Shown in pieces: positions 7,773 to 58,605 of a DNA stretch of 61,585 nucleotides; position 1 is the stretch's first letter, and each line of letters opens with the position of its first letter. The position numbers and the translations under genes were made by a program. Origin of the DNA: Mariprofundus sp. EBB-1 (GTDB lineage: Bacteria > Pseudomonadota > Zetaproteobacteria > Mariprofundales > Mariprofundaceae); contig NZ_RCFQ01000015.1 in assembly GCF_003665155.1 (NCBI RefSeq), forward strand, positions 1 through 61,585, given 5' to 3'. Under the pieces are notes generated by a model. The model saw only the letters and a list, made by a program, of their open reading frames with translations, searched no databases and was not told the origin of the DNA.

Positions 7773-7775
7773 GTT

Positions 7776-10700
7776 ATGCAAGAACTTCTCAAAATGTTCC
7801 AGAAGCCGTCCAGCATCGAAGATTTCGATGGTCTGCGCGTAGGGCTTGCAAGTCCTGAGAAAATTCGTTCATGGTCTTACGGCGAGGTTAAAAAGCCTGA
7901 AACCATCAACTATCGTACCTTCAAACCAGAACGTGATGGCCTGTTCTGCGCTAAAATCTTTGGTCCTATCAAAGATTACGAGTGTCTGTGCGGAAAATAC
8001 AAACGCCTGAAACACCGTGGTGTAGTGTGTGAAAAGTGCTCGGTTGAAGTGATTCAATCTAAAGTACGTCGTGAGCGCATGGGTCATATTGATCTTGCTG
8101 CTCCGGTCGCACATATCTGGTTCTTGAAAAGTCTGCCGTCCCGTATCGGTCTGCTACTTGATAAAACCTTGAAAGAGCTGGAACGCATCCTTTATTTCGA
8201 ATCTTACATTGTACTTGATCCTGGTCTGACCAGTTTGGAACAGTTCCAGCTACTAACCGAAGAAGAGTATATCGAAGCATTTGAAGAGTACGGTGAAGAG
8301 TTCCGTGCCGGCATGGGTGCGGAAGCACTGCAGGAAATGCTTAAAGATATCAATCTTGACGAAGAACGTCAGTCATTGCGTGCTCAGATTCTGGCGACCA
8401 AAGCAGTTACTAAACTGACCAAATTGACCAAGCGCCTCTCTACTGTGGAAGCGATGCTGGGTTCAGGCAACCGTCCGGAATGGATGGTACTGAATGTTAT
8501 TCCGGTACTGCCACCAGAAATTCGTCCATTGGTCCCTTTGGATGGTGGACGTTTTGCGACTTCCGACCTGAATGATCTGTATCGTCGTGTGATTAATCGT
8601 AACAACCGTCTGAAACGTCTGTTGGAACTCAACGCGCCCGAAATCATTACCCGTAACGAAAAACGCATGTTGCAGGAATCTGTTGATGCGTTGTTCGATA
8701 ATGATCGTCGCTCTAAACCGATCACTGGTAACAACCGTCGTCCTTTGAAATCACTCTCTGATGTGATTAAAGGTAAGCAGGGTCGTTTCCGTCAGAACTT
8801 GCTTGGTAAACGTGTGGATTATTCCGGCCGTTCGGTGATCGTTGTTGGTCCTGATCTGAAACTGCATCAGTGTGGTTTGCCGAAGAAGATGGCCTTGGAA
8901 CTGTTCAAGCCTTTTATCTACAACAAACTGGAACTGCGCGGTCTATCCAACACGATTAAAGCGTCTAAGAAGCTTGTGGAGCAGGGTATTCCGGAAGTAT
9001 GGGATATTCTGGCTGAAGTGATTCATCAGCATCCGGTTATGCTGAACCGTGCACCAACACTGCACAGACTTGGTATCCAGGCTTTTGAACCGATCCTGAT
9101 TGAAGGTAAAGCGATTCAATTGCACCCATTGGTTTGTACTGCCTTCAACGCGGATTTCGATGGTGACCAAATGGCTGTGCATGTTCCGCTATCTGTGGAA
9201 GCTCAGACCGAATGCCGTGCATTGATGATGGCTTCCAATAACGTACTTTCTCCTGCAACAGGTAAACCTGTTATCGTTCCTACACAGGATATGGTTCTGG
9301 GTATTTATTACCTGACGCGTGAGCGTCCATTCGAGAAGGGTGAGAATATGGTATTCTCATCACCGGCTGAAGTGCTGCGTGCAGAGGATGCTGGCGCTGT
9401 AGCGTTACATACACGTATTACGTGTCGTATTCGTGGTAAGCGTGAGAAGACAACTGTTGGTCGTGCTATTCTTTCCACTATTTTGCCGGATGAAATGCCA
9501 TTCTCAAGCATTAATCGTATTTTGACCAAGAAAGATGTGGCCGGTTTGATCGAAGATTGTTACCGCGTTGCAGGCAATAAAGCGACTGTATTGTTGGCTG
9601 ACCGTTTGAAAGTGCTGGGTTACACCTATGCAACGATTTCCGGTGCTTCATTTGCATTGTGTGATGTTGTAGTACCGGATAGCAAGGCTACTACTGTTGC
9701 AGAATCTGAAGCAGAAGTTGCCAAAGTACAAAAGCAATATGCTGATGGTTTGATCACTGCCGGTGAGCGTTACAATAAGGTAGTGGATTTATGGACTCAT
9801 ACCACTGAAAAAGTGGCACGTGCCATGATGGACAACCTGTCCAATGAAACAATCACCAGTGCTGATGGCTCACAGAGTGAAGAAGTTAAGACCTTTAACC
9901 CGGTTTATATGATGGCTGATTCCGGTGCACGTGGTTCTGCACAGCAGATTCGTCAGCTGGCTGGTATGCGTGGTCTGATGGCGAAACCGGATGGCTCTAT
10001 TATTGAGACACCGATTACGGCGAACTTCCGTGAAGGTCTGACTATTCTGCAATACTTTATCTCTACCCATGGTGCCCGTAAGGGACTGGCCGATACTGCC
10101 TTGAAGACTGCGAACTCAGGTTATCTGACCCGTCGTCTGGTTGACGTGGCGCAAGATGCTGTAGTGCGTATTCAGGATTGTGGTACTGAAGCTGGTGTTA
10201 CACTGACTGCCCTTGTTGAGGGTGGTGAAGTGATTGAGCCACTATATGAACGTGTGCTTGGTCGTATTTTGTTAGAGTCTGCATGTGATCCAATTTCAGG
10301 TACTGAAATTGCTCCAGCTGGCGCAATGGTTAATGAAGAACTGGCGAATAAGATTGATGATGCAGAAATTGAATCTGTGCGTATCCGTTCAGTACTGACA
10401 TGTGAAGCTGAAGATGGTGTGTGTGCAAACTGTTATGGTCGTGATCTTGGTCATGGTGCTCCTGTAGGTATCGGAGAAGCTGTTGGTGTGATTGCAGCGC
10501 AGTCCATTGGTGAGCCGGGTACTCAGCTTACCATGCGTACTTTCCACGTTGGTGGTACTGCATCACGTTCAGCTGAGCAGGCTGCTGTTGAAGCCAAGTT
10601 CGGTGGTACTGTTAAATTGGACGCTGCGATCACAGTAACCGATTCACATGGTTCTGAAATTGTTATTAACCGTCATACAGAAGTGATTATTAATTCTACT

Positions 10701-11990
10701 GCAAATAAAGAGATGGAACGTCATCGTATTCCATATGGTGCACATCTGTTGATTAAAGATGGCGCGGTCATTAAAGCTGGCGCAAAACTGGCTGAATGGG
10801 ATCCTTACACCATGCCATTGATTGCAGAAACTAATGGTAAGATTCGTTTCGTTGATCTGGAAGAAGGTATCACCATGCGTGAGCAGTCTGATGAAGTTAC
10901 TGGTCTCTCCAGTCGCATCGTTACGCAGCAGACCGATACCCGTAAAGATGCATTGCGTCCGCAGATTCATCTGGTTGATCCTAAGGATCCGGAAGGTGAT
11001 CCGATTGTACTGGAACGTACGAATACTCCGGCGCGTTACTTCCTTTCTCCCGGTGCGATTCTGAATGTTGAAAATGAAGCTGAACTGAAAGCGGGTGATG
11101 TACTGGCTCGTATTCCACGTGAAGCAGGCAAGACCAAGGATATTACTGGTGGTCTTCCACGCGTTGTCGAGCTGTTTGAAGCACGTAAGCCGAAGAATCT
11201 GGCATTCATTGCCGGTGCTGATGGTGTGATTTCATTCGGTAAAGATATTCGTGGTAAACGTCGTGTATATGTCGATCCAGCCGATGGTTCTGATCAGCTT
11301 GAATATCAGATTCCTAAGGGTTCACAGATCCTCGTTCAGGAAGGTGACCGCGTACGTCGTGGTGAGCGTCTGATGGAAGGTTCTCCTGCTCCTCAGGATA
11401 TTCTGAAAGTATTGGGTGTTGAAGCGCTATCCAACTACCTGACTGATGAGATTCAAGAGGTTTACCGTCTACAGGGTGTGAAGATCAACGATAAACATAT
11501 CGAAGTGATTGCACGTCAGATGATGCGTAAGGTTCAGATCAATGATCCGGGCCAGTCCAACTATGTTGCTGGTGAACAGCCAGTGCGTAAACATGTACTG
11601 CAGGCTAACCGTAAACTGGTTGCAGCAGGTAAAGCTCCGGCAACATTCGAGCCTATCCTGTTGGGTATAACCAAGTCTTCCTTGAACACTGAGTCGTTCA
11701 TCTCTGCGGCTTCATTCCAGGAAACTACGCGTGTGATCACCGAGGCTGCATTGGCTGGTAAAGTCGATTGGCTGACTGGTCTGAAAGAGAACGTCATTCT
11801 TGGTCGCCTGCTACCTGCCGGTACTGGTCTTGCAGCACGCAATGCACCACGCCGTCAGACTGCTGAAGAGGCTGCTGCGGCAGATGTGATCGAGAAAGCT
11901 ACCGATGTGGATATTCTTGAAGAGTTGAGCGAAGTGATCGACGATGTTGATCCGAGCACAACGATCTCGATTGAAGACGCAGCTGCTTAA
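7776..11990 (+). CDS. rpoC: DNA-directed RNA polymerase subunit beta'
   Basis: The beta prime subunit has 1404 residues. The N-terminal zinc site is visible ([19 protein letters not shown]). The catalytic magnesium motif [12 protein letters not shown] and the bridge-helix/trigger-loop segments follow. The RBS GGAG overlaps the end of rpoB. The gene ends in a strong terminator, and the usual rpsL-rpsG-fusA string does not follow within the window. Confidence 0.99.
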
Positions 11991-12016
11991 GCTTCGACTT
12001 ACACATACGTAACAAT

Positions 12017-12045
12017 AAAAGGGTGCCTTTGGGCGCCCTTTTTTT
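12017..12045 (+). terminator. Rho-independent terminator of the rpoBC operon
   Basis: The stem GGGTGCC/GGCGCCC (12021-12027 with 12032-12038, one G-U) has a TTTG loop, an upstream A run and seven T residues downstream. This is a textbook intrinsic terminator 27 bases after the rpoC stop codon. Confidence 0.92.
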
Positions 12046-12117
12046 ATGGCAATCATTTTCTTCAGATGTGTAACACGAAAAAGAAGCAAACTGTGCAGTT
12101 TTGCATATGATCGGGAT

Positions 12118-13191
12118 ATGGACCCGTTAACACATGCGATTTCGGGGGCAGCACTTGCCCGCGCAATTCCGAAACATCATCTTCCCGCACAGCAGTTTAT
12201 AATGATTGTACTGCTGTCGATGGCTCCAGATGCCGATATTGTATTGCGTCTATTTTCAGAGACCCTCTATCTGGAACATCATCGAGGTCTTACTCACTCC
12301 ATACTGTTGGTTCCTCTCTGGGGCTGGTTTATCTACAGTCTTACATCACGACAGGTGCAGGCGAACAGGGTAATGCCATGGCTGATTGGGGGAGCATTGC
12401 TGCTGCATATCATGCTCGATGTGATTACCACCTTTGGTACCATGATACTGGCACCTTTTTCAGATTGGCGTGCCAGTCTGGACCTGTTGTTTATTATCGA
12501 CCCGTTTTTTTCGGCCTGTATGTTGGTTCCACTGTTGCTAGGTTTGATCTGGAAAAAGCAAAAGCGCATCATGGGAATAGCCAGTTTAATACTGATGTGC
12601 AGCTATTTAGCTCTAGCCTATAGTAACCAGCAATCAGCAGTCACATTGACAAAACAGGCGTATCCGGATGCTGTGGGCTATAATGCTCTACCCTTGGCTT
12701 TTTCACCGTTTCATTGGCAGTTGATCGCTATCTATCCGGATTACTATATGCGGTCATCAGTAAACCTGGCCCCCGAATTCGCTGGTACGAAATGGTTATT
12801 TGATGATGATTTTATCGAAGCGATGATCTCCAACCGTATGGGGCGTGCCGGTGACCTCGTTTGGCAGAAGTTATTGGCGATGCATACGGTAAACGATGTG
12901 CATAGTCTTCCCGGCGCAGCATTTTATACGTGGTTTGCCAGTTACCCTGTGTTGTTGGAGAAGGGCGAGAATATGATCCGCTTCGGTGATCTGGCTTTTG
13001 GAGCAGGGGCACCGGGTGTGCGTCCTGCCTTTGAACTCCAGATTGAGGGATACAAGGTGACTTTAAATCATGGTAATAAAGAAAATCATCTTTCTGGCCC
13101 TTCACAAGCCCGTGCGTATCTTATCTGGCGCAATAAGCATAAGAGTGAACTCACAGGATCTGAGGTGCCATTTGGTTGGTTCAATAGTTGA
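12118..13191 (+). CDS. Membrane-bound metal-dependent hydrolase, YbcI/DUF457 family
   Basis: The product has 357 residues from the ATG at 12118 (MDPLTHAISG). The reading frame is open further upstream, but that part overlaps the rpoC terminator and looks unlike a protein. The family hallmark histidines are present (DPLTHA, HRGLTHS, HIMLDVITTFGT), and several hydrophobic helices lie in the N-terminal half. Proteins of this family are inner-membrane and predicted metal-dependent hydrolases of unknown substrate. The gene is single and convergent with the SulP transporter. Confidence 0.85.
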   Translation: MDPLTHAISGAALARAIPKHHLPAQQFIMIVLLSMAPDADIVLRLFSETLYLEHHRGLTHSILLVPLWGWFIYSLTSRQVQANRVMPWLIGGALLLHIMLDVITTFGTMILAPFSDWRASLDLLFIIDPFFSACMLVPLLLGLIWKKQKRIMGIASLILMCSYLALAYSNQQSAVTLTKQAYPDAVGYNALPLAFSPFHWQLIAIYPDYYMRSSVNLAPEFAGTKWLFDDDFIEAMISNRMGRAGDLVWQKLLAMHTVNDVHSLPGAAFYTWFASYPVLLEKGENMIRFGDLAFGAGAPGVRPAFELQIEGYKVTLNHGNKENHLSGPSQARAYLIWRNKHKSELTGSEVPFGWFNS

Positions 13192-13262
13192 TAACTGCAT
13201 GGTTGGTTGTCGTAGCGTTGTCTGTAACAGACTAGGTGTGTGCATATTGCTGGGTGGTTAAT

Positions 13263-13292
13263 AAAAAAAGGGCGCTCAAGGCGCCCTTTTTT
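13263..13292. terminator. Bidirectional terminator between the DUF457 gene and sulP
   Basis: The stem GGGCGC/GCGCCC (13270-13275 with 13281-13286) is flanked by an A run on the left and a T run on the right. It can therefore end transcription from both convergent genes. Confidence 0.9.
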
Positions 13293-13311
13293 CATCCTGA
13301 GATGCGCTGTA

Positions 13312-14841
13312 TTATGCCAGTTTATCGTCCGCAATGTGGTAGCGCGGGTCTTCTTTGATATTCACTTCAACCAGATCACCAGCAGTTGTAAGCAACTTGG
13401 TACATTCAGGGCTCAAGTGGATCAGATGCAGGTTCTTGCCGGCACTTTTGTAGCGTTCAGCCAGATTATCGATGGCTTCAATAGCGGAGTGATCTGCAAT
13501 ACGGGATAGAGCGCAATCGATATAGACCTCTTCAGGGTCGGAATCAGGATCGAACAGATTACCGAAATTATGTGCTGAGGCGAAAAAGAGCGGGCCATGC
13601 ACTTTGTGGGTGCGTGAACCATCGGCATGGTCTTCTGTAGTGACATAGATATGGCGAGCCTGCTTCCATGCAAATACCAGTGCAGTTGCAATCACACCAA
13701 CAATTACAGCAGTTGCCAGATCAGTAACAACAGTGACGGCTGCAACCAGCATTCCGACAAATGAATCTTCACGCGGCACTTTTTTGAGCAGGTTAAAACT
13801 GCCCCATTCAAACGTACCAATGACCACCATAAACATTAGCCCGACCAGTGCGGCAACGGGCACCAGAGCAATCAAATCAGATGCGAACATGATAAATATA
13901 AGTAGAAATAGTGAAGCTGCGATGCCGGAGAGATTACGCAGGCCACCGGATGATACGTTGATCATGGTTTGCCCGATCATGGCACAACCACCCATGCCAC
14001 CGAAGAAACCGTTGATGGTGTTGGCCAGGCCTTGTCCGATGGATACGCGGTTGCCCTGTCCACGGCTATTGGTCATTTCATCCACAACGGTCATGGTCAG
14101 AAGCGATTCAATCAGACCAACGCCAGCGAGGATGGCTGCATATGGTAAAATGATATAGAGCGTTTCAAGCGTAAATGGTACGTCAGGGATATGAAACGAT
14201 GGGAAACCACCACTGATATCAGCAATGTCACCAACAGACTTGGTATCCAGTCCGCCAAAAATAACGATCAGGCTGACGGTGATAATTGCAGCAAGCCCGG
14301 CAGGGATCGCGCGGGTAATCTTTGGCAGAAAATACATAATAGCCATTGTTAACGACACCAGACCAAGCATGGTGAATAGCGGGTTACCGCCTAACCAGTG
14401 CATGACGCCATCGGCACCTTCAACTTTAAAATGATCCATTTGGGCTAGAAAAATAACGATAGCCAGACCGTTTACGAAGCCGAGCATAACTGGATATGGA
14501 ACCATGCGAATATATTTACCGAACTTGGCGGCACCAAACATCATTTGAAAAATACCGGTCAACACAATGGTGATAAAGAGATATTCAACACCATGTTGAG
14601 CAACCAGCGCAACCATGACAACAGCCATTGCACCTGTCGCGCCGGAAATCATGCCCGGGCGACCACCTACAATTGAGGTAACCAAACCCATCATAAAAGC
14701 GCCATACAAGCCTACCAGTGGGTTGACACCGGCGACAAAGGCAAAGGCAACCGCTTCCGGTACCAAAGCAAAAGCAACGGTCAGACCGGAAAGGATATCA
14801 TCCTTGGTCTTGGCGGCGTGGTTATAGTAGAGCTCGAACAT
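13312..14841 (-). CDS. SulP-family anion transporter with STAS domain
   Basis: This is an inner-membrane permease of 509 residues. The start is at 14841 (MFELYYNHAAKTKDD), where AGGAG lies at good spacing; the upstream extension is not membrane-like. The SulP core has the signature LVPEAVAFAFVAGVNPLVGL in its first helices and about 10-12 membrane segments. A C-terminal STAS domain begins around residue 410. SulP proteins carry sulfate, bicarbonate or other anions; the substrate cannot be told here, but BicA-like bicarbonate uptake is possible. It is transcribed alone, divergently from hemD. Confidence 0.9.
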   Translation of the reverse strand: MFELYYNHAAKTKDDILSGLTVAFALVPEAVAFAFVAGVNPLVGLYGAFMMGLVTSIVGGRPGMISGATGAMAVVMVALVAQHGVEYLFITIVLTGIFQMMFGAAKFGKYIRMVPYPVMLGFVNGLAIVIFLAQMDHFKVEGADGVMHWLGGNPLFTMLGLVSLTMAIMYFLPKITRAIPAGLAAIITVSLIVIFGGLDTKSVGDIADISGGFPSFHIPDVPFTLETLYIILPYAAILAGVGLIESLLTMTVVDEMTNSRGQGNRVSIGQGLANTINGFFGGMGGCAMIGQTMINVSSGGLRNLSGIAASLFLLIFIMFASDLIALVPVAALVGLMFMVVIGTFEWGSFNLLKKVPREDSFVGMLVAAVTVVTDLATAVIVGVIATALVFAWKQARHIYVTTEDHADGSRTHKVHGPLFFASAHNFGNLFDPDSDPEEVYIDCALSRIADHSAIEAIDNLAERYKSAGKNLHLIHLSPECTKLLTTAGDLVEVNIKEDPRYHIADDKLA

Positions 14842-46944: not shown

Positions 46945-48036
46945 CTAAAACGCCTTATCTTTTGGTTCCGGTATATCAAGAAACAAATCGTATAATGGAT
47001 TGTTGATATAATAGTTGAAGTTCCCAATTTTATGTTTTTGAATAAACCCTTTCTCCACTAGCAGATCAAGATAACGGGTGGCTGTTATTCGCGAGACTCT
47101 CAACTCACTTTTTACATGTTCAATCTTTGTATACGGATGCCTAAACAATAAGTTCAATAAGTCTTGGCTATAAATTTTAGGCAGCTCATTTCGAATTCGA
47201 TGTTTATAGTCCAACATTAACTTTTTAATACCTTGAATTAGCCATATGGTTTGTTGCGCAGTGCTTTCGATTCCGTCTAGCATATAGAGAATCCAAGGCT
47301 CCCAATTCCCTGATATACGAGTGTCTTGAAGCAGTCGATAATATTCGGATTTACTACGAATAATATAACGGCTTAAATATAATACGGGGAGGTTCAACAA
47401 GTCTTTTAATACTAGGTACAAGATATTAATCATCCGGCCAGTACGGCCATTACCATCATAAAATGGATGAATACTTTCAAATTGAAAGTGAATAATCGCC
47501 ATTTTTATTAAAGGATCGATGTCACACATTGCGTCATCATTTATAAACTGCTCCAGGTTAGACATGAGCTTCGTAATCTCATGGTGATCTTGAGGAGGGG
47601 TGTATACGACCTCACCAGTCTGTGCATTCTTAAGTTCTGTGCCGGGAAGCTTCCTAATACCCCCCTGGTTTTGCTCAAGTTCTTGATGAATTTCTAGAAT
47701 AAGTCTTGTTGATAAAAGTTCGCTGCCTTCAACTAGTTCAAAGCCCTTTCGAAGCGCGAGAGCATAACGATTTACTTCTTTTGCGGCAGGGCCACCAATA
47801 AAGTCCGAAAACAGGCCTGCTTTATAAAGCTCATCATGTGTTGTGATAATATTTTCAATTTCTGAGCTATCTTTAGCCTCTTGCAGTCCAAGTGTTGTTA
47901 TTAATATATCAGCGTTTGGAATGCTGGCAGCAACCCCTTTAAGTTCAGCTAAATAACGATGCGCAGATGCTGCTTTCTTCAATACAGATTTTGTTTCCAC
48001 GTCTACACTTGGCGGAAGTAAATTAGGGCTAGCCAC
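46945..48036 (-). CDS. Fic-domain protein (class II, N-terminal inhibitory helix)
   Basis: The protein has 363 residues. The Fic core motif is HPFYDGNGRTGR (residues 190-201), complete for AMP transfer to a target hydroxyl. The inhibitory helix motif [S/T]xxxE[G/N] is present as SSEIEN (57-62), so Glu61 should block ATP in the resting form. A C-terminal winged-helix (about 295-355, ELRVSRITATRYLDLLVEKG) suggests DNA binding or autoregulation. The arrangement resembles SoFic of Shewanella. No antitoxin gene is needed or seen. Repeats upstream look like operators. Confidence 0.93.
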   Translation of the reverse strand: MASPNLLPPSVDVETKSVLKKAASAHRYLAELKGVAASIPNADILITTLGLQEAKDSSEIENIITTHDELYKAGLFSDFIGGPAAKEVNRYALALRKGFELVEGSELLSTRLILEIHQELEQNQGGIRKLPGTELKNAQTGEVVYTPPQDHHEITKLMSNLEQFINDDAMCDIDPLIKMAIIHFQFESIHPFYDGNGRTGRMINILYLVLKDLLNLPVLYLSRYIIRSKSEYYRLLQDTRISGNWEPWILYMLDGIESTAQQTIWLIQGIKKLMLDYKHRIRNELPKIYSQDLLNLLFRHPYTKIEHVKSELRVSRITATRYLDLLVEKGFIQKHKIGNFNYYINNPLYDLFLDIPEPKDKAF

Positions 48037-48181: not shown

Positions 48182-48277
48182 TACTAGCATTAGTTATGCA
48201 CCTCTAAGTAAGCGCATATAGCTTACTGGCTTTAATTGAGCTAAAGGGTTGATAGTCCTTAATTTTAAAAGATACAG

Positions 48278-48486
48278 GCCTAACGCAAAAGACCCGCGTG
48301 GCATTAAGTCACTCAGATTTATTTACATAAGAGCCTAACGCAAAAATCCCAGCTGACATTGAGTCACTGAGTTTTTTAGATAAAGGCCTAACGCAAAAAG
48401 GGAGAGTGACATTGAGTCACTGAGTTTTTTAAATAAAGGCCTAACGCAAAAAAGGGCAGTGACATTAAGTCACTACCCTTTTTATT
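48278..48486. repeat. Four tandem 53-55-bp repeats with terminator-like dyads
   Basis: Units start at 48278, 48333, 48386 and 48439, each with GCCTAACGCAAAA. Each carries the dyad GTGAC-ATTRA-GTCAC or a near copy. The last unit forms a long hairpin with A/T feet (about 48450-48485), a good intrinsic terminator on either strand. All lie just outside the left att copy. They are thus the likely former downstream flank of tRNA-Leu(TAA), and on the - strand each unit ends in a T run after the dyad. Confidence 0.75.
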
Positions 48487-48488
48487 GT

Positions 48489-48514
48489 TGGTACGAGGAC
48501 GGGAGTCGAACCCG
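48489..48514. repeat. Left attachment site (attL) of the tRNA-Leu(TAA) element
   Basis: This 26-bp copy of the tRNA-Leu 3' end differs from the right copy by one missing C. The 20-bp core GAGGACGGGAGTCGAACCCG (48495-48514) is identical. Homology stops to the right of it, marking where the element begins. Confidence 0.9.
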
Positions 48515-48534
48515 ATTCCCAAATAATAAAAATC

Positions 48535-48720
48535 ATGGATCAAACCGAAGAAACACTTACTCAGTCAATAAAAACAGTACAAAGCGCTCAGGTGATGAAA
48601 GAGGTAAAAAACACTCTAATTCGTCCTTATCTAGTCACAGTTTGGTTACAAACCCAAGCATCTTTAGCAGAGAGATACAAAGCATGGCAGAAAAAAATGC
48701 TAACTTGTGCTTTCGACTAA
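48535..48720 (+). CDS. Small hypothetical protein overlapping the rep start
   Basis: The ORF of 61 residues begins MDQTEETLTQSIKTV. It looks like real coding sequence: helical, mixed charge, ending KAWQKKMLTCAFD. The rep frame across the same bases is low-complexity Ser/Asn, so this frame is the coding one until the rep ATG at 48684. The 37-base overlap suggests translational coupling or copy control of rep. No family is recognised. Confidence 0.55.
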   Translation: MDQTEETLTQSIKTVQSAQVMKEVKNTLIRPYLVTVWLQTQASLAERYKAWQKKMLTCAFD

Positions 48721-50102
48721 TTGGCTCCAGCACATCTTCTTTAATTGCTTTTGGTCGATTGTCTGATTTATGTCAGATGCTTGGTATTCATGCTCCAGAT
48801 TTATCAGATAGTATATCAGTAAATGGTGCCGTTCAGAGAATGATTAGTGAGCACTGGTGGCGCCGAGCACTTAGAAAGCTATTTGCTAGAGAGATAGAGG
48901 CAAAAGCTATCGTAGAGAACCGTGTGAACCTCTTTAAAAGCATTTATGTGTCTGATGAAGGCCTGAGTATTCATCGAGAGCAAAAACAGCGTAATCGTAA
49001 AATGCTTGAGAAAGTCATAGCCGTAAATGAAGAGGGTAAAGAACTCACTTTAGCTGAGCTTGCTGACACTTCTGTTTCTAACCCTGTTAATCGTCGCAAC
49101 GAATTAATGTGTCGTATTGCTGGATTCGAGAAGTATTCACTTGAGAAAGGTCACATAGCTTTGTTTTGGACAATCACTTGCCCTAGTCGCATGCATGCAT
49201 CGCTTAGTAAATCAGGCCGTTCCAATCCCAAATATGATGGAACCACTCCGGCCCAGGCACAGAAATATCTTTGTGATTTATGGGCATGTATTAGAGCTAA
49301 ATTTGATCGCATGGGTATAAAACTTTATGGGTTCAGAGTGGTAGAGCCGCAACATGATGGTACCCCTCATTGGCATCTGCTCGTATTTCTTCCTGATCGT
49401 GACCAAGAACAAGCAACGAAGATTGTTAGAGCTTACTCACTCATGGAAGACGGTCACGAGTCCGGCGCAGACAAATATCGTTTCAAAGTCGAAGCTATTG
49501 ATAGGAGTAAAGGAAGTGCTGCTGGTTATATTGCTAAATATATCTCTAAAAACATTGATGGACATGAAGTTGAAAAAGACCTTTATGGTAACGATGCAAA
49601 AAATAGCTCAGAGCGTGTTACTGCTTGGGCTTCTATTTGGAATATTCGTCAGTTTCAACAGGTCGGTGGGCCTTCGGTTTCTGTTTGGCGTGAACTAAGA
49701 CGTGTTCGAGAACCATCTGTAAATGATCCTAAATTAGGTGATGCATGGTTGGCAGCTAATTCCGGTGATTGGTGTGCCTTCATTCATGCAATGGGTGGAC
49801 TTGAATGCTCTCGTAAAGACCAGACAGTGAATCTTTCAAAAGAGTGGAGTGATGATGAAAACCAATATGGTGATCCTTTGGGGTGGTTAGTTAATGGAGT
49901 TGAATCATCTAGAGAGTATCTATGCACACGATTACACGATTGGAAAATTGAATTACGTTCTACTTCAAAGGCCGATGAGCTGCAGTGCGCAGAGCACGCT
50001 ACGCGCGCGCATAGCACGGCTGCGCAGCGGCCGCCTTGGAGTCCTGTCAATAACTGTACGGGTGCATTACAGAGTACATCTAATAGGCCACCGCCCATCT
50101 GA
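48684..50102 (+). CDS. Rolling-circle replication endonuclease, phage P2 gpA-type (HUH)
   Basis: The protein has 472 residues from the ATG at 48684 (MAEKNANLCF). The frame is open to 48459, but that part crosses the att site and is not protein-like. The HUH metal motif is PHWHLLVF (His229, His231). The two catalytic-type tyrosines are Tyr282 and Tyr286 in GYIAKYISKN, as in gpA-family nickases. ITCPSRMHASL and YGFRVVEPQHDG are further family marks. It nicks one strand at an origin to start rolling-circle replication. The last ~40 residues are low complexity. Confidence 0.9.
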   Translation: MAEKNANLCFRLIGSSTSSLIAFGRLSDLCQMLGIHAPDLSDSISVNGAVQRMISEHWWRRALRKLFAREIEAKAIVENRVNLFKSIYVSDEGLSIHREQKQRNRKMLEKVIAVNEEGKELTLAELADTSVSNPVNRRNELMCRIAGFEKYSLEKGHIALFWTITCPSRMHASLSKSGRSNPKYDGTTPAQAQKYLCDLWACIRAKFDRMGIKLYGFRVVEPQHDGTPHWHLLVFLPDRDQEQATKIVRAYSLMEDGHESGADKYRFKVEAIDRSKGSAAGYIAKYISKNIDGHEVEKDLYGNDAKNSSERVTAWASIWNIRQFQQVGGPSVSVWRELRRVREPSVNDPKLGDAWLAANSGDWCAFIHAMGGLECSRKDQTVNLSKEWSDDENQYGDPLGWLVNGVESSREYLCTRLHDWKIELRSTSKADELQCAEHATRAHSTAAQRPPWSPVNNCTGALQSTSNRPPPI

Positions 50103-50124
50103 TAAATCAAGAGGAGAGCTGATA

Positions 50125-50442
50125 ATGAGAAGCAATAAATATGTTAAATTATCTATTCCATTAAACCTTAAAGAAAAGGTTGCTATGGAAGCAGGAAACA
50201 AAGGTATGAATACATCTTCATTTGTTCGTTTTAAGCTATTTGAAGCGATTGTTAATAATGATGTGATGGATTCTATTCCTACGATGAAATGTAATGTGTA
50301 TCTTAAGTTTAGAGCTCCGGTTGAGTTAATGAATCATGTTGAACAACAGGCGATAACGTCGAATGTAACTGTTAGTGCTTATATCCGGTCTTTGCTTTTT
50401 AATGCTGTCATTGGAAAGGAAATAGAATCACGTTATCCATAG
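50125..50442 (+). CDS. Double ribbon-helix-helix-like protein
   Basis: The product has 105 residues from the ATG at 50125 with RBS AGAGGAG. It seems to contain two copies of an RHH-like unit: VKLSIPLNLKEKVAMEAGNK with SSFVRFKLFEAI (about 7-44), and VYLKFRAPVELMNHVEQQA with SAYIRSLLFNAV (about 58-97). Such units bind DNA as dimers, as in MobC or plasmid copy regulators. It follows rep by 22 bases and may help at the origin or repress it. Confidence 0.65.
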   Translation: MRSNKYVKLSIPLNLKEKVAMEAGNKGMNTSSFVRFKLFEAIVNNDVMDSIPTMKCNVYLKFRAPVELMNHVEQQAITSNVTVSAYIRSLLFNAVIGKEIESRYP

Positions 50443-50472
50443 AATTATGCACAGGGTCGTGCCGGGTTTTAT

Positions 50473-50519
50473 CCACAACAAAAAACGATCCCTGATTAAA
50501 TCAGGTGTTTTTGTTGTGG
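50473..50519. terminator. Bidirectional terminator/cruciform between convergent genes
   Basis: An inner hairpin CCTGA-TTAAA-TCAGG (50491-50505) is followed by a T run on + and, on the other strand, by another T run. An outer CCACAACAAAAA / TTTTTGTTGTGG pairing extends it to a 47-base cruciform. It ends both the rep operon and the cargo gene, though a role as a single-strand origin is possible. The rest of 50443-50678 contains one repeat copy. Confidence 0.7.
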
Positions 50520-50605
50520 GTGAAATTGGGTGCGAATCGCATAGCGATACTGTGTGAAATTTTGTGGGTAACCACATTGAAGAGTGTTGGAGTTGGAAGC
50601 TTATC

Positions 50606-50637
50606 GTTGCAATATAGCGACCGGCTGATTTCGGCCA
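50606..50637 (-). repeat. Inverted repeat copy A beside the cargo gene
   Basis: The - strand sequence begins TGGCCGAAATCAGCC and ends ATTGCAAC. It matches copy B at 52492-52523 at 28 of 32 positions in opposite orientation. The pair brackets the cargo gene alone. Confidence 0.75.
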
Positions 50638-50678
50638 AAACAGGACGTTCGGAAACGTTCTTTTGACGCCGCGCTTTG

Positions 50679-52310
50679 TTAGAGATCATTTTCGATAGTT
50701 TCTCGAGGTTTAAGAATTTTAGCATCAAAACCTTCCGTATCTTGATCAACTACAGCTGTACCAAAGAAGTACTCTGGATTATACCAGCGCCGATGCTTTG
50801 AAACCCCATCGAGGACAAACCGGTAACTAAGCTGTCGATTAATATCGGCCACTGCATTAGAGAACATATCTGTCGTTGGCATCCAGTCGTACAGGTAGCG
50901 ACATTCATCGAGTATTAACATATCCATAAACATCGGTGTGTCTTTGGCCTTGTAGTTCCAGCGTTTTGTTTCGCTGATATTTACATGATAAGGAGTGGCT
51001 ACCTGCCGAAACAACGCTTCAAATATTGGATGAAATAATACGAGGTCACAAAACTGATGGAAGGCCCAGATGTTGTGGTTTCTATATAGTTCTTTTATCT
51101 TTTCAGACCAGAATTCTTCTTGCCCGCTTCCTTCTGACAACAAGTAAGATATTAATAAATGAGTATTAATCAGTTCTTTCTTGCTGCCACCAACATCTAG
51201 TTGAGATAAAAACTGCTCAGTAAATTTATAAAACTCATCATCCTCAAAAATAAACTGAGGATAATTTGAATCTCTCGCATTTAACTCTTTGTCTAATGAT
51301 GCAAGAGTCCATAAGGTAGGATGCTGCCCAGAATCAACAATTACGTCCCCTCCACCACCTTCATCCTCGTCATTAAAATGAAAAAAACTACGCTTTATCG
51401 TATTTAGAATACTCCCTTCATTTCCACTAAAAAATTTCTTATAGAGAAAGTTGTTTTTAGGAAATCTATTGTACGTTGAGATTAAACTGGCATGATCTAT
51501 TAAAAGACGAGTAACAAATTGCCCATAATAATATTCCAAGTCACTTGATACAGTTTCATGCCATTCTTCTGGAGATAAACTGCGCGCTACGGGTCCCTCA
51601 CTAAATCCACTTTCAGATTGTTTGTCTTCTAGAAAATCTTTGGGGTAAAGGTAGCATGAGACTAGCTTTGCTAGTAATGACCGGCCAGCTTCATCCTGCT
51701 CCTCCAAAGGTAGTGAAAAGTTTGTGATTAAGACGCCTGGTGAATTAAGGGCATGTTTAGCAAGTATTCTTGTTAGAGCACTTAAGGTTTTCTGCTTCTT
51801 ATTTCTACTAGGAAGGGGGCCGCAAAAATCAAGGTATATAATATCAAACCGTTGAGGTGAAGCATCAATGAACGTGTCAAGGCCACCATTGATTATCTTG
51901 ATAAATGGAAATTCTGAATTTAATGCAGAAACAACTGCATCTGAATAGGTGGAGTTTTCCGATTCAAATGCCCAAATATTCTCAGGAAGAACGCCAGCCT
52001 GACAGAATATCCTTAAGTCATTTTCTGGGTTAGGGCCCGACAAATATGCGATTTTTAAATTGGCTGGTGTTCTGGATTGTACGATGGAGTCGTAAAAATA
52101 TTCCCATCTTTCTATAGTTTCATCGGTAAGCTGTTTCGCTATTTTTACATCATACGGATTATCACCAGATGTAATATGATCTCTGACATCACGGACATAA
52201 GTGCGTCGCGCAAGAGTTGATACAGAACGGTTTTTAGTCAGGGCTTTTATTGCATTGTCTATTACAAGTGCCCTTGCTTTATTTTTTTCAGGTTCAGAGT
52301 AAGAACTCAT
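50679..52310 (-). CDS. Methyltransferase-like protein of unknown function (cargo gene)
   Basis: The protein has 543 residues; I recognise no named family. Residues 85-230 look like a Rossmann methyltransferase core with altered motifs: YLSGPNPEND (89-98) at the SAM loop, AFESEN (114-119) with the acidic end of strand 2, GGLDTFI (142-148) and FDIIYLDFCGPL (155-166) at the motif-IV position. An N-terminal helical region (1-80) and a large C-terminal part (about 240-543) with a Gly-run near 350 and aromatic-rich segments complete it. It is transcribed against the rest of the element and is flanked by inverted repeats. Its place as the lone cargo of a small element suggests a phage-defence or host-fitness role, which is inference. 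Confidence 0.6.
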   Translation of the reverse strand: MSSYSEPEKNKARALVIDNAIKALTKNRSVSTLARRTYVRDVRDHITSGDNPYDVKIAKQLTDETIERWEYFYDSIVQSRTPANLKIAYLSGPNPENDLRIFCQAGVLPENIWAFESENSTYSDAVVSALNSEFPFIKIINGGLDTFIDASPQRFDIIYLDFCGPLPSRNKKQKTLSALTRILAKHALNSPGVLITNFSLPLEEQDEAGRSLLAKLVSCYLYPKDFLEDKQSESGFSEGPVARSLSPEEWHETVSSDLEYYYGQFVTRLLIDHASLISTYNRFPKNNFLYKKFFSGNEGSILNTIKRSFFHFNDEDEGGGGDVIVDSGQHPTLWTLASLDKELNARDSNYPQFIFEDDEFYKFTEQFLSQLDVGGSKKELINTHLLISYLLSEGSGQEEFWSEKIKELYRNHNIWAFHQFCDLVLFHPIFEALFRQVATPYHVNISETKRWNYKAKDTPMFMDMLILDECRYLYDWMPTTDMFSNAVADINRQLSYRFVLDGVSKHRRWYNPEYFFGTAVVDQDTEGFDAKILKPRETIENDL

Positions 52311-52491
52311 TTTGTACCTCTAACTAAGGTAATATGAGTAACAGTCATTCCACATATTACGCCCCTATAGTTGAACATAAATCACACTATATCTCATATT
52401 AAAGAGGAAGTGAGAAACTTTATGACTCAACTCTACACATTCAGCCTTAATGATGATTAAGGTAAATGTTATTAAGTTGACTGTCCATTTA

Positions 52492-52523
52492 TGGCCGAAA
52501 TCAGCCTGTCGCCTCATTGCAAC
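52492..52523 (+). repeat. Inverted repeat copy B beside the cargo gene
   Basis: TGGCCGAAATCAGCC followed by TGTCGCCTC and ATTGCAAC, matching copy A in opposite orientation at 28 of 32 positions. It lies in the 315-base divergent gap 52311-52625, which should also hold promoters for the cargo gene and the int operon; I see no clear promoter boxes. Confidence 0.75.
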
Positions 52524-52625
52524 AGCCTACTGGTATAGTGCAATCAGCTGTTAATTTCATTGTAAACTTTAGTTTTTTATTGTCGGGCGTTGAGAGTGCT
52601 ATTATTTAAGTGCATGCTTCCATGT

Positions 52626-52973
52626 ATGGAACGAACCCCGACCCCAGTTACGGCAAAAGAAGCCAAAGAGCTTATTGATTTAATTAATGAGGCAACACTC
52701 AATTTTCGCGGTAATTTGAATCATTTGCATACTGCTATTGGAGTTTTACTTGTAGGGCGCGAATTAGGGTGGAAGCCTTTGCTTTTGATTCACGACAAAA
52801 AAACTATACGTCGCTGTGAGGAAATTCTTGGCGTTGAGTTTAGAAAGGTTTTGCCGGAAGTTGGAAATAACGCAGATAAGTCAATTGCTTGGAAGCTAGC
52901 GCAGAAGGTTACTTCATTCTGGAAAGCTGTTCGTGGAGAAATTAAAGGTGTTCGTAGTCCTGAAATAGATTAA
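52626..52973 (+). CDS. Conserved small element protein, unknown function
   Basis: The product has 115 residues from the ATG at 52626 (MERTPTPVTAKEAKELID); an ATG at 52614 and a GTG at 52596 are alternatives. It appears to be one folded helical domain with LLVGRELGWKPLLLIHDKKT in the middle and SIAWKLAQKVTSFWKAVRGEI near the end. It has no membrane helix or known motif. It is the first gene of the operon that ends in the integrase. Confidence 0.7.
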   Translation: MERTPTPVTAKEAKELIDLINEATLNFRGNLNHLHTAIGVLLVGRELGWKPLLLIHDKKTIRRCEEILGVEFRKVLPEVGNNADKSIAWKLAQKVTSFWKAVRGEIKGVRSPEID

Positions 52974-52987
52974 CTGTGGCGATATAT

Positions 52988-53073
52988 CACACCTCTACAA
53001 GAGGGGGTGTGTTGCACCTCCATTGGTGGAGGTATAGCGTACCCCTCCAGTAGGCCGCACTTGGCCACGGAGG
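52988..53073 (+). promoter_or_regulatory. Three consecutive hairpins with anti-Shine-Dalgarno arms
   Basis: Hairpin 1 is at 52988-53011 (CACACC/GGTGTG), hairpin 2 at 53016-53033 (ACCTCC/GGAGGT) and hairpin 3 at 53044-53073 (CCTCC/GGAGG with inner GGCC/GGCC). The GGAGG at 53069-53073 is the ribosome binding site of the next gene and is locked in hairpin 3. Each hairpin offers a CCTC(C) arm, so the arms could exchange partners. This suggests translational control. Confidence 0.6.
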
Positions 53074-53078
53074 TGTTT

Positions 53079-53357
53079 ATGTTAAAAATCGAAGGGCGGC
53101 TTTCAAAAGAGCAATTAATTCAACTGAAAAGCATGCAGCCAAAGAAAAAATGCAAGGAATGTAAAGGCCACCTTTTACACGTTCCTTTTTTTGCGTGGCC
53201 AGAATATGTCTATGACGGATTTCCTCAAGTCGTTCCCGTATTTTTCAGTGTTTGCACGCGTTGCAAGTCTTTCCAAGTAGATGCAATGAAAGCGGATTTG
53301 GATGAAATTGAATCGTGCCCCGTCTGCAGTCCTGACTTTAGTTCGGTTCAACACTAA
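53079..53357 (+). CDS. Zinc-ribbon-like small protein
   Basis: The product has 92 residues from the ATG at 53079, whose RBS GGAGG lies in a hairpin. Three Cys pairs (CKEC, CTRC, CPVC) are spaced as in zinc ribbons. A Phe/Pro-rich stretch, VPFFAWPEYVYDGFPQVVPV, lies between the first two. It is probably a DNA-, RNA- or protein-binding regulator. Its stop shares one base with the next start (TAATG). Confidence 0.7.
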   Translation: MLKIEGRLSKEQLIQLKSMQPKKKCKECKGHLLHVPFFAWPEYVYDGFPQVVPVFFSVCTRCKSFQVDAMKADLDEIESCPVCSPDFSSVQH

Positions 53358-53536
53358 TGAAATACGTTCGTGCTATAAAACTCGCTGAAGTGACCGGTTT
53401 AACGGTTGCTGCAATTAATGCGATGAGATATCAAGGGAAGTTACTAAAGGATATTCATTGGTTTAAGCGTTCTGCACGAACTGTTTGGTACGATTATCCA
53501 GCTGTTATGCGTTATGTTAAAGGCGATACTCAATGA
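53357..53536 (+). CDS. Excisionase-like DNA-binding protein
   Basis: The ORF of 59 residues begins MKYVRAIKLAEVTGLT. It has a helix-turn-helix start (LAEVTGLTVAAINAMRYQGK) and a wing-like end (WFKRSARTVWYDYPAVMRYV), the layout of excisionase/MerR-like factors. It overlaps the preceding stop by one base and the integrase start by four (ATGA). The position directly before int fits an excisionase role. Confidence 0.75.
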   Translation: MKYVRAIKLAEVTGLTVAAINAMRYQGKLLKDIHWFKRSARTVWYDYPAVMRYVKGDTQ

Positions 53537-54654
53537 GTGTTCGCCCAAGAGGAAAAAGCATACAAATCGATTTTTATTATCGGAATGTTCGCTGCCTAGA
53601 AACATTGAAGCTTTCTCCAACCAAAGCAAATATTCGATATGCTGAAAATAAGTTATCAATCATTAAACATGAGATAGCGACCAATTCTTTTGAATACCGT
53701 GCTCATTTCCCTAATAGTAAAACTCATAGTTCAATGATCTTTGGTAATTCCTTGGCTGGAAATATGACTGTTGAAATGGCACTGCAAAATTATTTCAACG
53801 CCAATAAAAAAGGATGGAAAAAATCAACCGAAGAAACAAACCTTCAGGCTATAGAGGGGCATCTTATCCAGGCATTTAAAGATGTGCGTTTGATTGATAT
53901 TAATGTCGGTATGATTCGACAGTGGATGTCTTCATTAAGTTGTTCACCAAAACGGATTAATAATATTCTGATTCCACTGCGCGGCATGTTGAAAGACGCA
54001 CATGCTGATGGCCTTATTGAACAAAACCCAATGGATCGCATTCGAAATTACAAAACTAGAAGTAGGGAGCCACAACCATTTAGTCTTGAGGAACAGAAGA
54101 AAATATTGAATGTGCTCCATGACCAAACTCGGAATCTAATCCAGTTCGCATTTTATACAGGGTTAAGGACTGGGGAGTTAATTGCTCTTCGCTGGTCTGA
54201 CATTGATTTTGATAATAATTTGGTTCGGGTGAGGCGCTCTATTAGTAGGAAAGAAGAATCAACTACAAAAACAGCCGCTGGTGAGCGTGATGTGGTTTTA
54301 TTTGAGGCTGCTTTAGAAGCTTTGAACGGTCAGAAATTATTTACGTATAAATTATCAAACCGTATTTTTCATAATCCAATCACAAAAAAAGAATGGGCTA
54401 GTTGTGATGCTATATGGCGCCACTGGCAAGCAGCATTTAAGAAATTAGATATTCAATATCGAGAGCCATACCAGACACGACATACCTATGCTTCATCACT
54501 TTTATCTGCAGGAGAGCATCCATCATGGATATCTAGGCAGATGGGTCACACTGATCCGAGCGTATTATTTAAGAAGTATGCTCGTTGGATGCCAGAGATG
54601 TATCCACATGCTGGAGACAAAATTAGAGCTGTTTGGTTACAGAATGGTAACTGA
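53533..54654 (+). CDS. int: Tyrosine integrase of the tRNA-Leu(TAA) element
   Basis: The integrase has 373 residues. An N-terminal arm-binding domain (about 1-60, IQIDFYYRNVRCLETL) is followed by a core-binding SAM-like domain (about 80-165). The catalytic domain shows Arg in YTGLRTGELIALRW, the RH pair in QTRHTYASSLL, His in MGHTDPSV and the nucleophile Tyr in KKYARWMPE. It recombines the tRNA 3' end with the element. It lies next to the intact tRNA, the normal place. Confidence 0.95.
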   Translation: MSVRPRGKSIQIDFYYRNVRCLETLKLSPTKANIRYAENKLSIIKHEIATNSFEYRAHFPNSKTHSSMIFGNSLAGNMTVEMALQNYFNANKKGWKKSTEETNLQAIEGHLIQAFKDVRLIDINVGMIRQWMSSLSCSPKRINNILIPLRGMLKDAHADGLIEQNPMDRIRNYKTRSREPQPFSLEEQKKILNVLHDQTRNLIQFAFYTGLRTGELIALRWSDIDFDNNLVRVRRSISRKEESTTKTAAGERDVVLFEAALEALNGQKLFTYKLSNRIFHNPITKKEWASCDAIWRHWQAAFKKLDIQYREPYQTRHTYASSLLSAGEHPSWISRQMGHTDPSVLFKKYARWMPEMYPHAGDKIRAVWLQNGN

Positions 54655-54671
54655 GTCAAAATCAGAAAATG

Positions 54672-54699
54672 AAAAAGCCCCGATAAATCAGGGCTTTAT
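54672..54699. terminator. Bidirectional terminator shared by int and tRNA-Leu(TAA)
   Basis: The stem AAAGCCC/GGGCTTT has A/T feet on both sides. On + it ends int; on - it ends tRNA-Leu(TAA). The element therefore brings a new terminator for the tRNA it occupies. Confidence 0.85.
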
Positions 54700-54702
54700 G
54701 CA

Positions 54703-54729
54703 TGGTACCGAGGACGGGAGTCGAACCCG
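54703..54729. repeat. Right attachment site (attR), 3' end of tRNA-Leu(TAA)
   Basis: This is the 27-bp tRNA 3' end, whose 20-base core is identical to the left copy. The tRNA remains whole because the element carries the same bases. Confidence 0.9.
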
Positions 54730-54789
54730 TACAGTATTGCTACCGAGGGATTTTAAGTCCCTTGTGTCTACCAGTTCCACCACCTCGGC
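54703..54789 (-). tRNA. tRNA-Leu (anticodon TAA)
   Basis: An 87-nt class II tRNA with a long variable arm. The anticodon stem AGGGA/TCCCT encloses CT-TAA-AA, giving anticodon TAA. The T-loop is TTCGACT, and CCA is encoded. It lies downstream of rnr on the same strand and is the integration target of the 6.2-kb element. Confidence 0.96.
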
Positions 54790-57086: not shown

Positions 57087-57173
57087 GCCGAGGTGGCGGA
57101 ATTGGTAGACGCGCTAGCTTCAGGTGCTAGTTTCCTCTTGGAAGTGCTGGTTCGAGTCCAGTTCTCGGTACCA
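57087..57173 (+). tRNA. tRNA-Leu (anticodon CAG)
   Basis: An 87-nt class II tRNA. The anticodon stem CTAGC/GCTAG encloses TT-CAG-GT. A long variable arm, the T-loop TTCGAGT and an encoded CCA (57171-57173) are present. A P4-type integrase lies just downstream, so its 3' end is the likely attachment site of the second element. Confidence 0.97.
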
Positions 57174-57206
57174 TTTAGTAATATCATATAATAGCAGAAA
57201 GACGCG

Positions 57207-57233
57207 AAAGCCCTTGGAAACAGGGGCTTTTTT
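57207..57233 (+). terminator. Terminator of tRNA-Leu(CAG)
   Basis: The stem AAAGCCC/GGGCTTT is followed by a T run 34 bases after the tRNA. Confidence 0.85.
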
Positions 57234-57315
57234 CTTGTGGGGTTGTCGCATAGGTGCCATACTGACGCAATGAAGCGCATGATTTACAGGGGTATATTCC
57301 GTGGTACGGCAAGTC

Positions 57316-57358
57316 GTACCCCACCGCAGATCTCAAACGTACCCCAGTTTGTACCCCA
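57316..57358. repeat. Three GTACCCCA direct repeats before the P4-type integrase
   Basis: Copies at 57316-57323, 57339-57346 and 57351-57358 lie between the tRNA and the int start. Repeats in this place are common in P4-like elements and may bind the integrase arm domain or the AlpA factor. A GGTACG/CGTACC hairpin precedes them. Confidence 0.55.
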
Positions 57359-57384
57359 GCATTTGCGCTCATTTGAGGTGTGAA

Positions 57385-58605
57385 ATGGCTCTAACAGATG
57401 TTCAAATCCGTAAAACAGCATGCCCAACGGATAAAGCGCAGATCAAAAAGTATGATGCAGATGGTCTATTTATGGCTTTTAAGCGTTCTGGTAAGAAAGT
57501 ATGGCGGTACAGATTCACTCTGGCAGGGAAGGAAAAGCTTTTAACGCTTGGTGACTATCCGGCACTAACATTAAAAGAAGCTCGCAAGATAGTGGGCGAA
57601 TTTAACCTAGAGGTTATGCGCGGCGTTGACCCAGCCATAGCAAGAGCCAAAAAAAAGCAGAAAGATGATGATTGCAAACCAACCTTTGAACCAGTTGCAC
57701 GCGAATGGATGGAACAAGTTAGCCGTGATTGGGTAGATAAGTCAGCTCAGAAGCTCACCACATGGATGGAGGTTGATGTTTTCCCTTATATGGGTGGCAT
57801 GACCTTTGAGGAAATAGAAGCGCCTGATGTGTTGCTTATTCTTCGTCGTGTATATGCAGCCGGACATGAATATAAGCTGCGCAAGCTTCATTCATACTTT
57901 AGCAGGATCTTCTCTTTCGCCATATCTCACGGTAAAGCCAAACGTAATCCAGCCAAAGATATTGTAATGCGTGACCTGTTCGGAAAGGTGAACAGTGAAC
58001 ATAGACCAGCATTCACCACTGCGACAGATGCAGGCAAGTTGATGCGGATGATTGAAGGGTATGAAGGTAGCCACCTGACACGCGATGCGTTGAAGCTGAT
58101 GGCGCTGATGTTCACAAGGCCAGGCGAATTGCGGCAGATGAAGTGGAAAGAGATTGATTTCAAAGCTAAGCAATGGCGCTACTTTGTGAGCAAGACCAGC
58201 GTTGAACATATTGTACCGCTATCAGAGCAGGCGTTAGCAATACTGGAAGGGCTAAAGCCTATATCCAGTCATCTTGAGTATGTCTTTATAGGTGCAAGAT
58301 CAGTTCACCGACCAATGAGCAACAACACCATGAATGCAGCTTTAAGAAGCATGGGCATTGATACCAAGACAGAGCATTGCTCGCATGGCTTCCGCGCTAT
58401 GGCGCGCACCCTGTTGGCTGAAAAGGGTTGGAATACTGATTTTATTGAACGCCAGCTTTGTCATAAAGAACGCGATGCAACAGTAGAAGCCTATGCCCGC
58501 GCAAAGTATTTGGATGACCGTTGCTTGATGATGCAAGACTGGGCTGATTATCTGGATGCATTGCGTGATGGTGCGCAGGTGATACCCTTTAAGCGTTCAG
58601 CCTGA
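57385..58605 (+). CDS. int: P4-type tyrosine integrase
   Basis: The integrase has 406 residues from the ATG at 57385 (MALTDVQIRKTACP) with GAGGTG as RBS. The frame is open to 57301, but that part covers the GTACCCCA repeats. The N-terminal DUF4102 arm domain (about 1-90, DADGLFMAFKRSGKKVWRYRF) is typical. Catalytic residues are Arg in FTRPGELRQMKW, His/Arg in HGFRAMARTLL, His in QLCHKERD and Tyr in EAYARAKYLDDR. It is adjacent to tRNA-Leu(CAG), its target. Confidence 0.95.
   Translation: MALTDVQIRKTACPTDKAQIKKYDADGLFMAFKRSGKKVWRYRFTLAGKEKLLTLGDYPALTLKEARKIVGEFNLEVMRGVDPAIARAKKKQKDDDCKPTFEPVAREWMEQVSRDWVDKSAQKLTTWMEVDVFPYMGGMTFEEIEAPDVLLILRRVYAAGHEYKLRKLHSYFSRIFSFAISHGKAKRNPAKDIVMRDLFGKVNSEHRPAFTTATDAGKLMRMIEGYEGSHLTRDALKLMALMFTRPGELRQMKWKEIDFKAKQWRYFVSKTSVEHIVPLSEQALAILEGLKPISSHLEYVFIGARSVHRPMSNNTMNAALRSMGIDTKTEHCSHGFRAMARTLLAEKGWNTDFIERQLCHKERDATVEAYARAKYLDDRCLMMQDWADYLDALRDGAQVIPFKRSA

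Follow-up and report, generated by a model that had tools for sequence, protein, structure and literature searches.

The 61.6-kb stretch of DNA that we analyzed (here called the window), from the iron-oxidizing marine bacterium Mariprofundus sp. EBB-1, contains a precisely bounded integrative replicon, located at positions 48494 to 54708 at a tRNA-Leu(TAA) gene. Counted with one att copy, the element has 6,215 bp and a G+C content of 40%, compared with 47% for the window. It codes for a gpA-type HUH replication initiator (Rep), a double ribbon-helix-helix (RHH) protein, a cargo gene in reverse orientation, an orphan protein (p5), a small protein with zinc-ribbon cysteines, an excisionase-like protein (Xis), and a tyrosine integrase (Table 1). 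This is largely the gene order first proposed from the sequence, in which the nickase, the double RHH protein, the reversed cargo gene, and the integrase all hold. The small open reading frame placed in front of them (48535 to 48720) is probably no gene, as it is missing from the related element of Mariprofundus sp. OFTM123 and overlaps a conserved N-terminal stretch of Rep in another frame. Searches of the element proteins against Pfam, PHROGs, PADLOC, and NCBIfam left the proposed zinc ribbon below the curated cut-offs and gave a weak match for Xis, which is also supported by its position and its 4-nt overlap with int. Among the element proteins, the profile searches found no capsid, terminase, portal, relaxase, or secretion genes.

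TABLE 1 Features of the element at tRNA-Leu(TAA), in window coordinates
Feature	Position	Strand	Evidence or remark
attL	48494..48514	+	Displaced 21-bp copy of the tRNA-Leu 3' end; flank agrees with empty sites
Left candidate integrase arm-type site TAGTCACAGTTTGGTTAC, paired heptamers	48632..48649	+	Also in OFTM123 (L028:5224) and Mariprofundaceae 131-447 (L129:1297)
gpA-type HUH rolling-circle replication initiator (Rep)	48684..50102	+	PF05840 E=1.9e-88; phrog_91 E=3e-174
Candidate rolling-circle origin GGAGTCCTGTCAATAACTGTACGGG	50038..50062	+	Matches the annotated rep_origin region of phage 186 at 24/25 bases
Double ribbon-helix-helix protein, probably regulating Rep or copy number	50125..50442	+	PF12441 E=2e-7; 56% identity in OFTM123
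Strong hairpin with TTATCCACA box	50467..50525	+	z = -4.6 as single-stranded DNA
543-aa cargo gene in variable slot	50679..52310	-	Orphan family; slot swapped in OFTM123
115-aa orphan protein p5	52626..52973	+	Common to islands with other HUH Reps
Small protein with zinc-ribbon cysteines	53079..53357	+	Subthreshold matches; not conserved in OFTM123
Excisionase-like gene (Xis), overlaps int by 4 nt	53357..53536	+	phrog_539 E=0.0012; 61% in OFTM123
Tyrosine integrase with Arm-DNA-bind_2 domain	53533..54654	+	PF12167 E=2.5e-20, PF00589 E=8.5e-19; 76% in OFTM123
Right candidate integrase arm-type site TGGTTACAGAATGGTAAC	54634..54651	+	Same place in OFTM123 (L060:10149)
tRNA-Leu(TAA), integration target	54703..54789	-	ARAGORN; attR core 54709-54729

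A direct repeat of 21 identical bp marks the two ends of the element; its right copy coincides with the 3' end of tRNA-Leu(TAA), which ARAGORN places where it had been predicted. The longer att copies of 26 and 27 bp with a one-base indel were likewise found as described, the left one starting at 48489 and carrying the 1-base deletion (displaced copy GGTACGAGG, corresponding empty-site sequence GGTACCGAGG). The 20-mer att core occurs exactly twice in the window, a result seen in 0 of 100 shuffles, and the 2.88-Mb host genome has no third exact copy. Sister genomes agree with the expected empty site, as in them a sequence like the left flank comes directly after tRNA-Leu(TAA). In two of them (G012 and G010) the site reads GTCAC, a terminator-like hairpin, and TTGTTGGTACCGAGGACGGGAGTCGAACCCGTACAG, and the left flank in the window ends alike before the displaced att copy. 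No such element lies directly at this tRNA end in G012, G010, G016, G015, G001, or G011. The locus thus shows what is typical of site-specific tDNA islands, with a tyrosine integrase, an intact tRNA at one end, a displaced fragment at the other, and empty sites in relatives, and we have high confidence in both the integration at tRNA-Leu and the family assignment.

In the near relative G006 (97% identity near the site), the sequence adjoining the tRNA is unrelated and resembles part of another integrase gene, and the match to the left flank reaches only to about 46739. Just left of the element (46945 to 48036) is a gene for a SoFic-type Fic adenylyltransferase (PADLOC SoFic E=5e-120), followed beside the tRNA site (48246 to 48481) by four tandem units of ~53 bp (GCCTAACGCAAAA...GACATTGAGTCAC), and other Mariprofundus genomes contain similar units in many locations. 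At the right end of the window (57087 to 58605), a second tRNA-Leu (CAG) is directly followed by another integrase-like gene, which seems to mark the beginning of a further island.

The integrase has no close relative in viral contigs (best, 29% identity). Within the window, TGGTNAC-like heptamers paired across a 4-bp spacer are confined to the two arm-type sites of Table 1, just inside the element ends; such pairs recur at matching places in OFTM123 and in a third relative. The pattern was derived post hoc from these same sequences, and we regard the pairs as good candidates that probably represent the integrase arm sites. We propose that Int, aided by the small overlapping Xis, would recombine the 21-bp att cores via the arm sites at both ends and free a circle of about 6.2 kb.

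Proteins of the gpA-type HUH family initiate rolling-circle replication in P2-like phages. The family matches of Rep bear out the nickase predicted at this position, and the protein is ~40% identical to the initiator of phage 186 and contains the motifs HDGTPHWH and YIAKY, both kept in the OFTM123 Rep. Its true start is probably upstream of the annotated one, at about 48640, because an N-terminal stretch conserved in relatives precedes the annotated start. Near the 3' end of the gene is the candidate origin, which in phage 186 is found with one change at the annotated rep_origin (28576), likewise inside the A gene. In most of the gpA loci examined, Rep ends in an origin-like site with 1 to 9 mismatches, versus 7 to 11 anywhere in shuffled loci. 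At the C terminus, the two Mariprofundus Reps have little in common apart from the PWSPVNN stretch encoded by the origin site, and this conserved DNA at the 3' end therefore supports a working, if predicted, origin. The element shares with P2-like phages a gpA-type initiator with the origin inside its gene, and Rep would nick the circle at this P2/186-type origin to start rolling-circle replication. We consider rolling-circle replication of the element well supported, with moderate confidence; this part of the circular replication in the original prediction is now stronger than it was claimed to be, given the conservation of the phage 186 origin sequence in the Rep gene.

The RHH protein downstream combines a CopG_antitoxin segment with a NikA-like one (E=2.7e-5, below the cut-off) and probably restricts Rep expression. 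The weak, subthreshold similarity to the mobilization proteins NikA and MobA could also be read in favor of an integrative mobilizable element, in which the HUH protein would serve as the relaxase and the RHH protein as a relaxosome accessory, with movement provided by a conjugative element, and some rolling-circle initiators are indeed related to relaxases of other elements (MOBT, PMC11389934). We think this improbable, as Rep matches phage initiators (phrog_91) and no MOB family, keeps a phage-type origin inside its gene, and is accompanied by a NikA match that falls below the curated cut-off, and a search found no homolog of the RHH protein in the islands at transfer-messenger RNA (tmRNA) genes described below. 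The hairpin after the RHH gene is a candidate single-strand origin or terminator. Paired DnaA-like boxes are found near it, at 50445 and 50469; they are missing in other islands, so we set them aside as evidence.

A second member of the family is located at the same tRNA-Leu in OFTM123 (G019), the kind of relative that the original prediction had called for. One contig of this genome contains attL, Rep (75% identical), and the RHH gene (56%), and another contains the tRNA-Leu, the integrase (76%), Xis (61%), and p5 (37%), so the element is split and its joining is an inference only. A third Rep, 51% identical, was found on a 3-kb Mariprofundaceae contig beside an apparent tRNA-Ser end. Within the genus, Rep is present in 2 of 23 genomes. 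Alternatively, the element could be what is left of a P2-like or tailless (corticovirus-like) prophage after decay, with nothing retained but int and the replication gene. The relationship of Rep to both of these phage groups would fit such an origin, as would its closest relatives in viral contigs, which are on small contigs that lack P2 structural genes and read like tailless phages. Against this, all the main genes are intact and conserved in the OFTM123 island, whose cargo differs, the element contains no structural fragment, and islands comparable in size and layout are found repeatedly at tmRNA genes, so we judge a remnant very unlikely.

The slot between rhh and p5 holds different cargo in the two islands. 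In OFTM123, the 543-aa gene is replaced by a class-II glutamine amidotransferase (PF13230), which is not recognizably defensive. The reversed cargo gene in EBB-1 was predicted as such, and it lacks any family match in Pfam, PHROGs, PADLOC, and NCBIfam, including the known defense families in PADLOC. Homologs are found in three proviruses (48 to 49% identity) and on three plasmids (30 to 35%), one of them annotated as a SAM-dependent methyltransferase, and none in phage records. A structure model of the protein was unreliable (mean pLDDT, 43), with only residues ~85 to 200 resembling an alternating alpha/beta core, and sequence searches found no PDB relative of the cargo protein or of Rep. We list the protein as a candidate single-gene defense or methyltransferase-like protein, probably though not demonstrably defensive; the defense role is a guess from the slot, and our confidence in it is low. 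A 41-nt inverted repeat (83%; 50606 to 50646 and 52483 to 52523) flanks the cargo gene, with partial copies elsewhere in the host genome and in five other genus genomes, some near contig ends. Because of these dispersed copies, the cargo may have entered as a cassette bounded by the repeat.

The same plan extends beyond the genus. Of 65 loci obtained in a genome scan with Rep, most belong to P2-like prophages and a few to elements resembling tailless phages. Four gammaproteobacterial islands directly downstream of tmRNA have a gpA-type Rep, cargo, and an Arm-type integrase 37 to 44% identical to that of the element, between exact direct repeats of 27 to 30 bp (Methylotetracoccus, 7.1 kb; Pleionea, 6.8 kb; Zhongshania, 8.2 kb; Catenovulum, 8.4 kb). 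Two further gpA islands carry an integrase of a different type, one in Microbulbifer (tRNA-Ala, 52-bp repeat, 9.0 kb) and one in Porticoccus (34-bp repeat, 9.4 kb). In Colwellia (L137:1556-3462), a gpA Rep gene lies in pieces directly downstream of tmRNA, apparently in a decayed island. A quick Rep tree recovers the Mariprofundus Reps as one supported group, with the tmRNA islands apart at moderate support; given its long branches, it only suggests that gpA islands have more than one origin.

p5 has clear homologs in two islands, one in G354 (6.0 kb, at tRNA-Lys, exact 46-bp repeat) and one in G011 (6.6 kb, at tRNA-Met, exact 24-bp repeat). Both have a REP_ORF2-G2P-type HUH Rep, and their cargo is defensive, SIR2-type in G354 and AriA/AriB (PARIS-like) in G011; p5, integrase, and defense cargo therefore recur with a different HUH initiator. 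Plasmids contained neither a DNA-level relative of the element nor p5. A second HUH island may be present on another contig of the host genome (L030, G000:C25, ~5329 to 13787), where a distant gpA-like Rep (28%) and what look like type I restriction-modification genes come after a tRNA-Gln.

As it encodes no transfer machinery, the element must borrow a phage or move passively to reach other cells. The host genome gave no match to the portal PF04860 or the terminase PF03237, we found no helper gene, and the element has no P2/186-type cos (best, 7 mismatches of 19). Packaging or mobilization by a helper, as originally proposed, is pure inference, and our confidence in phage transfer is low; the most likely route would be for a phage to package the multiplied DNA. 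The lack of any helper or induction signal would fit a passive genomic island in which Rep is a relic, replication occurs only as part of the chromosome, and spread depends on generalized transduction or transformation. In favor of this, the functionally similar I55, which has no known transfer genes, is moved by jumbo phages (PMC12595487). We consider this passive reading unlikely, as Rep and the origin are intact across islands of Zeta- and Gammaproteobacteria, which suggests selection for replication.

Taken together, we favor as the probable reading a minimal helper-dependent integrative replicon, or "hitcher" island, that would excise, replicate by rolling circle, and carry exchangeable cargo in a slot that in relatives often holds antiphage defense and for which the 543-aa gene is a candidate. 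A broader and clearly more doubtful possibility is that gpA-replicon islands represent an undescribed and widely distributed class of minimal phage satellites that arose repeatedly by combination with different integrases, multiply from a copy of the P2/186-type origin, are packaged by phages, and carry exchangeable defense genes. We found no description of such islands in the open-license literature, and an earlier one elsewhere is possible. Small islands that lack transfer genes are common, and their movement has long been a question. A bounded 6.2-kb island with relatives in another class that share Rep, a predicted origin, and a cargo slot makes excision, replication, and helper use directly testable, and the slot is a place to seek unrecognized antiphage genes, such as the family of the 543-aa cargo.

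The earlier view that the element matches no named satellite group agrees with the literature, in which PICMIs and I55-type tmRNA islands work similarly. With the P2/186 phages (Peduoviridae), the element shares the gpA-type initiator, the origin inside the A gene, and nearly all of the origin bases; it differs in having no structural, lysis, or regulatory phage genes (0 matches among its proteins to the capsid, portal, terminase, and tail genes of a P2-like prophage), a Rep of only partial identity, and a different integrase. P4-like satellites carry a primase-helicase and capsid-size and transactivation genes, for which the element has no matches, although both are small integrative elements with their own replication gene, and P4-like satellites carry a defense hotspot (PMC9122126). 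The I55-type tmRNA islands of Pseudomonas (PMC12595487) resemble the element in their tRNA/tmRNA-type site, tyrosine integrase, small excision factor, defense cargo, and lack of transfer genes, and an inovirus Gp2-like HUH protein is among the common genes of I55. They are, however, about 20 to >70 kb long, with AlpA, RadC, and YqaJ, and are defined by intY downstream of tmRNA with alpA or a 23-bp end sequence, whereas the element has a P2-type gpA Rep with its origin, a tRNA-Leu site, and no AlpA match. The PICMIs of Vibrionaceae (PMC10803314) are likewise ~6 kb long with few genes, an int overlapped by 4 nt by a small gene, their own replication gene, defense cargo, and no capsid genes. PICMIs code for a DUF3987/DUF5906 primase and AlpA and adjoin fis, in contrast to the PF05840 Rep without a primase family match, the weak excisionase match without AlpA, and the tRNA-Leu(TAA) site found here; helper dependence is proven for PICMI only (PMC10803314). 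Functionally, the element is near the PICMI and I55-type hitcher islands, yet it falls outside both as they are defined.
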